Part shown: piece after piece, positions 15,585 through 29,548 of the stretch
Numbering within the stretch: position 1 is the first letter of the stretch
How the letters are laid out: every line of letters begins with the position of its first letter
NCBI GenBank assembly: GCA_023250885.1
Contig: JAHEZV010000003.1
Location: 1-57,842 of the forward strand
Direction: 5' to 3'
Origin: Nitrososphaera sp.
Lineage (GTDB): Archaea; Thermoproteota; Nitrososphaeria; Nitrososphaerales; Nitrososphaeraceae
DNA: 57,842 nt
The notes under the pieces: generated by a model
What the model saw: the letters and a program-made list of their open reading frames with translations, nothing else
Told to the model about the DNA's origin: nothing
The model's database searches: none
Position numbers and translations under genes: made by a program

Positions 15585-16685
15585 TTACTGAAGCTCGACG
15601 CCCAGTATGTCAAACATGACGCATTCGCACTTGCTGCCAAGGATTTCTGAAACGTTCGGCTTCATGTATTCTTCGCCGCCTACGAACTGCTTTATCATCA
15701 AGCCGCCGTCTGCAACCATGGTGAGCGCAAACTGGATGCCGTGGAGCCGGCGGGCCCGGGCGGAATGGATCTTTTTTGAAGCCGTTTTATTCCTGTTCTC
15801 AAATCTCACCTCTGCTCCGGCAAGCGAATTGAGCTTTTTCATGTCCTCCCTTGCCAGCGCCCTTTCGCATTTTGCGTGAATTTTTGTCTTGACCTTGAAT
15901 CGCGGCTGGAGATCCGGCTCGTCTTCGATCACCGACAGCGTCGCTGTAACGCCATTGCCACTGATCCTGCTCTTTTTCAGCTTCCTTTTCCTAGGGTTAA
16001 AGACGCGGGCGTAAAATGGTCGGCCCCTTCCAAGCACCAAACTGCTTTGGTCCTCGCTTCCAATCCACGAAAATTTCGGCACCTGCCCTCCAGTCATTTC
16101 TACAAGCCCTTTTGCAACAACGCCTTCGACGCTGCCGTAGCCTGACAGGCCCGAATAATTGCAGGAATCGCAGCCCCTTCCTTCGCAACTTGGGCACCTG
16201 TCCTGTTTTTGTGGTACGCCCCTTGACTTTTTGACGTACCGGCCAAACAGCGCGAGCGGCCTTGACCTGACTGCCACATCCACGTTGTTTTCCTTGTCTA
16301 TGGCAAGGCTTACCGTGATGTCAGGCTTTGTGTATTCGACTTTTTTCCTTGCCAGCCGGGCAAGCCGCGTTCCAAGCTCTCTTGTCAGCTGGCTCTTGAC
16401 GCTCTCCCTGCCGCGGATTTTAAGGCGGGCCCTCATGGTGTCTTCCCGCTCATAAATCTGGGTCGGCAGAGTGGCGCCGATAAGGAACGTTTCAAACTCG
16501 TATCCCCTGACAGCATCAATTATTTTGTCCGCTGTCGAGTCAAGGTTGCCCATCAGGCCGCGGCAGATGTAGCATTGCCCGTCCTGCCTTGCCCGGCCGC
16601 CAGCATGCCTTTCAAAACATCGCTTGCAGAGTTTGTATTGCTTTAACAAAATAGCCCGGGCATCAGCCAAGATTGCCGCCGCCAA
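15585..16685 (-). CDS. pus10: tRNA pseudouridine(54/55) synthase Pus10
   Basis: N-term CxxC pairs CKRCFERHAGG/CYICRGLM; DITVSLAIDKENNVDVAVRSRPLALFGRYVK; C-term AGAEVRFENRNKTASKKIHSARARRLHGIQF. Confidence 0.9.
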   Translation of the reverse strand: MAAAILADARAILLKQYKLCKRCFERHAGGRARQDGQCYICRGLMGNLDSTADKIIDAVRGYEFETFLIGATLPTQIYEREDTMRARLKIRGRESVKSQLTRELGTRLARLARKKVEYTKPDITVSLAIDKENNVDVAVRSRPLALFGRYVKKSRGVPQKQDRCPSCEGRGCDSCNYSGLSGYGSVEGVVAKGLVEMTGGQVPKFSWIGSEDQSSLVLGRGRPFYARVFNPRKRKLKKSRISGNGVTATLSVIEDEPDLQPRFKVKTKIHAKCERALAREDMKKLNSLAGAEVRFENRNKTASKKIHSARARRLHGIQFALTMVADGGLMIKQFVGGEEYMKPNVSEILGSKCECVMFDILGVELQ

Positions 16686-29346: not shown

Positions 29347-29386
29347 CGCCACAATTATATAGCATTCCAGCAACAAACGGCAATGT

Positions 29387-29548
29387 CCCGCGGTAGCTCA
29401 GCCTGGTAGAGCTTTCGGCTGTAGATGTCGGCTTCTCAGTAGCTGACCGCGTGAAGCAGCCTATCGGGCGCACAATGCAGTGACCGAAGAGTCGCAGGCT
29501 CAAACAAAATGGCCGCAAGCCGTTTTGGGGCAAATCCTGCCCGCGGGA
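29387..29548 (+). tRNA. tRNA-Tyr (GTA) with two introns: 29425-29482 (58 nt, position 37/38) and 29504-29533 (30 nt, T-loop position 58/59)
   Basis: Acceptor CCCGCGG/CCGCGGG, D-arm GCTC/GAGC, anticodon stem TTCGG/CCGAA, T-stem GCAGG/CCTGC; removing both introns gives a 74-nt cloverleaf with loops CTGTAGA and CTCAAAT; no encoded CCA. Confidence 0.9.

Follow-up and report, generated by a model that had tools for sequence, protein, structure and literature searches.

An intron in tRNA-Tyr is retained in eukaryotes and in many archaea. In tRNA-Tyr, aPus7 forms pseudouridine 35 (Psi35); Sulfolobus and Aeropyrum use an H/ACA guide for it instead (PMC6313347). The guided reaction in Sulfolobus takes place on pre-tRNA-Tyr (Muller et al., 2009, as cited in PMC7991803 and PMC6313347), and the distance from target to ACA in archaeal H/ACA RNAs is 14-16 nt (PMC7991803). 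A tRNA intron may also serve as a guide, as the tRNA-Trp intron is a box C/D guide in Haloferax and other Euryarchaeota (Clouet d'Orval, 2001; Singh, 2004, both as reported in PMC11408192). T-arm introns and multiple non-canonical introns are known in archaea, and 107 of the non-canonical kind have been documented from Thaumarchaeota genomes (PMC8450103, PMC12397907); the splicing endonuclease of Thaumarchaeota is of the alpha2beta2 type (PMC4090602).

The locus described here is a tRNA-Tyr gene within a stretch of 57,842 nucleotides from a Nitrososphaera-group archaeon. This whole stretch is referred to as the window, and all features of the gene lie on its forward (+) strand. The first of the two introns almost certainly carries a structure conserved over most of the phylum, a covarying fold predicted to pair with the D-loop and anticodon arm of its own tRNA. 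No paper describing this structure was found in open-licence literature. An earlier reading of the window, made from the sequence alone, had taken intron 1 for a routine 37/38 intron; the position is right, but an intron with a phylum-wide conserved structure is hardly routine.

Gene anatomy and splicing

The sequence-only reading had proposed that the gene is interrupted twice, with BHB logic at both introns. Removal of 29425-29482 and 29504-29533 joins exon 1 (29387-29424, positions 1-37), exon 2 (29483-29503, positions 38-58) and exon 3 (29534-29548, positions 59-73) into a 74-nt RNA that is called as tRNA-Tyr(gta) by ARAGORN, in agreement with that proposal. A TATA-like element, TTATATA, can be read directly in the sequence at 29355-29361, 26 nt upstream of the tRNA 5' end. 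With intron 2 alone removed, ARAGORN calls a tRNA-Tyr with a 58-nt intron, and with intron 2 left in, it makes no tRNA call at the locus. Because intron 2 blocks detection, the unspliced gene was missed in the raw window by both ARAGORN and Rfam, the latter giving no match at gathering score.

Intron 1 (58 nt, position 37/38) has a BHB with central helix CTGT/GCAG and bulges AG^A and TG^A (^, junction), the 3' strand GCAG with its bulge spanning 29477-29483. Intron 2 (30 nt, in the T-loop at 58/59) has a central helix of GCTC (29498-29501) with GGGC (29528-29531), bulges AA^A and AA^A, and a 9-bp inner stem (29505-29513/29519-29527). Both central helices are thus those that had been read earlier. 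Cuts at adjacent A's of intron 2 give an identical product in this gene, and the 58/59 reading is fixed by two family members, L050 and L062, in which the intron starts in T. Since G53 in the central helix leaves five unpaired nucleotides (AAATC) on the 3' side, the BHB of intron 2 is relaxed rather than perfect; a BHB at both junctions is kept in relatives.

A single match to the tRNA-Tyr exon pattern was found in the genome, which is about 95% complete, and no other tRNA hit in it reads as Tyr. A second intact tRNA-Tyr(GTA) gene, which the sequence-only reading had named as the finding that would speak against it, was looked for among these hits and none turned up. The endonuclease type, another check proposed there, was examined through the protein set: the genome encodes two separate PF01974 (tRNA_int_endo) proteins, the two-subunit type. 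As expected, these would fit an alpha2beta2 endonuclease that accepts non-canonical BHB motifs, and each of the two BHB introns in the transcript would be excised by it. The sequence evidence confirms the locus as the predicted sole functional tRNA-Tyr(GUA) gene of this archaeon, interrupted by two BHB introns.

The T-loop intron and position 54 among relatives

Comparison with orthologous genes, likewise proposed beforehand, showed that the 162-nt gene can be aligned over its entire length in every one of the 34 same-family genomes that gave a full-length match. The T-loop intron (58/59, 19-32 nt) is present in 31/31 measurable genes of the own family and, given the alignment of the whole gene in 34 genomes, is not a chance feature. 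Its central helix consists of GCTC with GRGY (GAGC in 15 genes, GAGT in 8, GGGC in 7 and GGGT in 1). It also occurs in 18/26 genes of family f10 and sporadically elsewhere. The sequence-only reading had seen the T-loop intron as the surprise of this locus, an emphasis that was abandoned, as T-arm introns and multiple non-canonical introns are already documented for archaea, Thaumarchaeota included. Being fixed in one family and sporadic elsewhere, the T-loop intron was rejected as the main novelty and is ordinary for its own group.

The earlier reading also pointed out C54 in the T-loop and a Pus10 gene; both are indeed there, the gene at 15585-16685 on the minus strand of the window. Every gene of family f1 and all f10 genes but one have C54, among them 8 in f10 that lack a T-loop intron, and outside these two families T-loop introns mostly accompany T54. 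The T-loop intron as the cause of C54 was therefore rejected as a strict rule. As C54 replaces the usual U54, Pus10 would be unable to make pseudouridine 54 in tRNA-Tyr of f1 and f10.

Further introns were observed in the same survey. Many tRNA-Tyr genes (L069-L075, L142-L147, L202-L225) also have an intron at about 30/31, and an additional D-arm intron in f10 leads to some tRNA-Tyr genes with three introns. A Nitrososphaeraceae-type tRNA-Tyr gene (L295) was found on JACMIO010000046.1 ('bacterium isolate ES-bin-123'), a contig that is probably archaeal or mislabelled.

A conserved core in intron 1

Loci for tRNA-Tyr were sought by exon patterns blind to intron content, and 215 distinct candidates were parsed, 213 of which are tRNA-Tyr. 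A core consisting of YAGYM (mostly CAGCC or CAGCA), an 8-nt P1 strand, a spacer of 0-2 nt and ACA is present in 199 of these 213 genes across the phylum. The core anchor was a CAGCC-like motif plus ACA at 14-15 nt, so that CAGCC and the ACA spacing are not independent of selection; complementarity to the D-loop was absent from the anchor, save for two purines required in the P1 strand. A hairpin, P2, showing strong covariation, stands 3-10 nt (rarely up to 18) ahead of the guide element in 198/199 core genes. In the gene described here, intron 1 (29425-29482) contains P2 at 29427-29447 (GTCGGCT ... AGCTGAC), the guide-like CAGCC at 29457-29461, the P1 strand TATCGGGC at 29462-29469 and the ACA at 29472-29474, which lies 15 nt from where CAGCC begins.

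Among the named genomes with the core are those of Nitrososphaera, Nitrosocosmicus, Nitrosotalea devanaterra, Nitrosopumilaceae, Bathyarchaeota, Brockarchaeota, Wolframiiraptor, Terraquivivens and Calditenuaceae. Three genes of the Sulfolobaceae-like family f42 have short introns of about 13-15 nt with the core absent. In one genus of family f32 (L260-L263), CAGCC has degenerated, the D-loop pairing strand and the ACA are kept, and TruD is present.

Pairing with the D-loop and the anticodon arm

The P1 strand faces D-loop G15-A21 of the same gene (GCCTGGTA, 29401-29408, the 5' strand of helix P1). Over 100 distinct rows, 795/800 cells form standard pairs, and when the D-loops were permuted, a mean of 773 and a maximum of 780 of the 800 cells were paired, with 795 reached in 0/2000 permutations. 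The D-loop variants C17/U17 and U20/C20/A20 are met by compensating changes in intron 1. Variant D-loops pair fully with their own introns (GCTTGGTA in 14/14 genes, GCCTGGAA in 4/4 and GCCTGGCA in 4/4), and the consensus D-loop would fully pair with the introns of 1/14, 0/4 and 4/4 of these genes, respectively. In L273 (GCTTGGCA/TGCCAAGC), two changes in the D-loop are accompanied by two matching changes in the intron.

A second set came from named genomes scanned with no constraint on the D-loop; its 50 new distinct genes are all fully paired (50/50), with C20-G and A20-U pairs among them. The unconstrained scan also returned nine hits without the expected D-arm directly upstream; of these, three belong to tRNA-Tyr genes that have a D-arm intron or an incomplete context, and the six without tRNA context are as expected of chance matches. 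For the whole structure over 47 distinct rows, 95.6% of cells are paired, and doubly changed cells number 142, against 46 in shuffled and at most 46 in slid alignments. No 8/8 match between D-loop and intron was found in the other elongated tRNAs tested in this genome. Chance complementarity to the D-loop was rejected on these three grounds: the covariation, the second gene set and the lack of a full match in other elongated tRNAs.

The CAGCC element pairs with G30-G34 (GGCTG, 29417-29421) in the gene comparison. As it faces the invariant anticodon loop, its conservation mostly goes without covariation support, apart from one compensated case: L166 (G128) has A31 in the anticodon stem, with matching changes both in the mature stem (U39 as partner) and in the intron guide (TAGTC).

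The ACA box

Even where P1 has gained a bulge, the spacer is shorter to match, and the ACA thereby stays 14-15 nt from the start of CAGCC. For most of the phylum, this ACA overlaps the BHB strand ACAG, and its conservation there could therefore stem from splicing. About 60 genes, among them those of the entire own family and of several other lineages, have their BHB site 1-18 nt further along and retain the ACA, so that its upkeep only as part of the BHB strand was rejected. Within the own family, where it stands apart from the BHB site, ACA is found in 34/34 genes, with two bases before and three after it varying.

A possible guide for Psi35 and its alternatives

A role as Psi35 guide is proposed because CAGCC pairs with G30-G34 up to U35 (29422) and the ACA lies at the H/ACA ruler distance. 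From this geometry, intron 1 would be a cis-acting, one-armed H/ACA-like guide for pseudouridine 35, a reading that we favour by a little. The wider proposition that the ancient tRNA-Tyr intron of Thermoproteota makes each pre-tRNA its own one-armed H/ACA-like Psi35 guide, with the D-loop as half of the lower stem, is given even chances. Before splicing, the 3' half of intron 1 would pair with D-loop G15-A21 (P1) and, through CAGCC, with G30-G34, beside hairpin P2. U35 and A36 would remain single-stranded where the guide-like duplex ends, at 14-15 nt from the ACA, and this spacing is the one that places a uridine in the Cbf5 active site in archaeal H/ACA ribonucleoproteins. The pre-tRNA may thus guide Psi35 formation on itself and then refold to the competing BHB/cloverleaf form for splicing. 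The anatomy of the gene, its conservation, the covarying pairings and the conserved ACA with its spacing are observed; Cbf5 recruitment, Psi35 formation, action in cis and the order of these events are what we infer. The Cbf5 gene is present in this genome, and no Psi35 measurement in these archaea was found in open-licence literature.

Several features of an H/ACA guide can be recognised in intron 1. The ACA stands 14-16 nt from the target site, the 3' guide strand is complementary to the 5' flank of the target (with one compensated variant, and with CAGCC being part of the search anchor), and a lower stem lies below the pocket, formed with the D-loop instead of within the guide. A 5' guide strand, as in a bipartite pocket, is absent, there being no complement to the 3' flank and P2 following directly after G37, so that the pocket is half of a canonical one. 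A kink-turn or K-loop in the upper stem is also absent (the P2 loop measures 3-4 nt in 126/198 genes), and the usual L7Ae site is therefore missing. Lacking both the kink-turn and the 5' guide arm, intron 1 is not filed as a canonical H/ACA RNA. A box C/D guide was rejected, as CUGA-like motifs are not conserved (CUAA in many genes).

Alternatively, the fold may be a folding or splicing switch, in which the intron ties up the D-loop and anticodon arm to delay tRNA folding or cleavage, with no role in modification. The D-stem/anticodon/BHB fold cannot form together with P1 and the guide pairing, which are the more stable by prediction (-55.5 kcal/mol for the P1 fold vs -38.1 kcal/mol for the cloverleaf/BHB form of the precursor lacking intron 2); the precursor would therefore need refolding before splicing. 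A switch of this kind leaves the fixed ACA, its distance of 14-15 nt and its retention where the BHB has moved unexplained, and is considered unlikely.

Another explanation is that the fold gives the precursor a shape recognised by a stand-alone enzyme; the simplest candidate is an archaeal Pus7/TruD that depends on the intron for the presentation of UGUAG, in the manner of eukaryotic Pus7. Intron-dependent Psi35 formation by Pus7 on pre-tRNA-Tyr is established in eukaryotes (PMC11408192). TruD/Pus7 is present in 226/250 of the phylum sample and in this genome, where it has the GxKD motif, so that Psi35 could be made here without a guide and the absence of TruD was rejected as a driver in this genome. 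Its loss touches whole families of Nitrososphaeria, among them f8 (9/9 genomes), f13 (7/7) and f17 (2/2), and the Brockarchaeota-like f29 (8/8); most relatives have TruD. The core is kept in 27/28 TruD-less genomes with a parsed tRNA-Tyr (the exception being G421/L249). This association is consistent with the guide but is no test of it, because most TruD-positive genomes also keep the core. Whole TruD-less families that retain the core, and an ACA at fixed distance for which TruD would have no need, make the substrate explanation quite unlikely.

The excised intron might instead act in trans as a guide on tRNA-Tyr or on other tRNAs, as the haloarchaeal tRNA-Trp intron works in trans (PMC11408192). 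Similar D-loop sequences occur in other tRNAs, and the covariation of intron 1 with the D-loop is compatible with cis and trans action alike and unable to separate them. The guide pairing, however, is specific to the anticodon arm of tRNA-Tyr, and the position of P2 directly after G37 in the precursor fits a fold in cis; action in trans is judged decidedly improbable. That the locus is no more than a tRNA-Tyr gene interrupted by two spacer introns is scarcely credible: the group often has non-canonical and multiple introns (PMC8450103), but the phylum-wide covariation between intron 1 and D-loop contradicts it, and a full D-loop/intron match was confined to tRNA-Tyr among the elongated tRNAs tested in the genome.

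Significance and comparison with known systems

The covarying structure of intron and D-loop, with its H/ACA ruler, offers a concrete and testable reason for the retention of the intron in archaea, and predicts two mutually exclusive folds of one tRNA-Tyr precursor. If the cis-guide reading is true, a guide RNA would be fused to its own target, a form that was not found described in open-licence literature, and a route to Psi35 in lineages without Pus7 would be shown. It would also explain both the retention of the tRNA-Tyr intron and the repeated loss of Pus7, as well as how Sulfolobales, with a trans-acting Psi35 guide, could do without the core.

The locus shares with the archaeal non-canonical introns cut by the (alpha beta)2 endonuclease the BHB (here at 37/38 and in the T-arm) and the two-subunit endonuclease; intron 2, fixed in one family, is not fundamentally different from them. 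The tRNA-Trp intron directs modification of the tRNA in whose gene it lies, as is proposed for intron 1. It differs in directing 2'-O-methylation through C/D boxes, in acting in trans and in belonging to another tRNA and another phylum. Atypical pseudouridine guides of Pyrobaculum were described in 2012 by Bernick et al., as cited in PMC7991803. Many of them reportedly have a single 3' guide and miss canonical features. They are like intron 1 in these respects and unlike it in being separate, trans-acting sRNAs with a kink-turn. A likeness extending to the target is that to the archaeal H/ACA guide (Cbf5-Nop10-Gar1-L7Ae), of which the Sulfolobus Psi35 guide has the same target base: both have a 3' guide strand that pairs directly 5' of the target U, a lower helix and an ACA at 14-15 nt. 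Unlike that guide, intron 1 uses the D-loop as the 5' strand of the lower helix and has neither a 5' guide arm nor a kink-turn, and guide and target are one molecule, the guide being encoded in the target's own intron.
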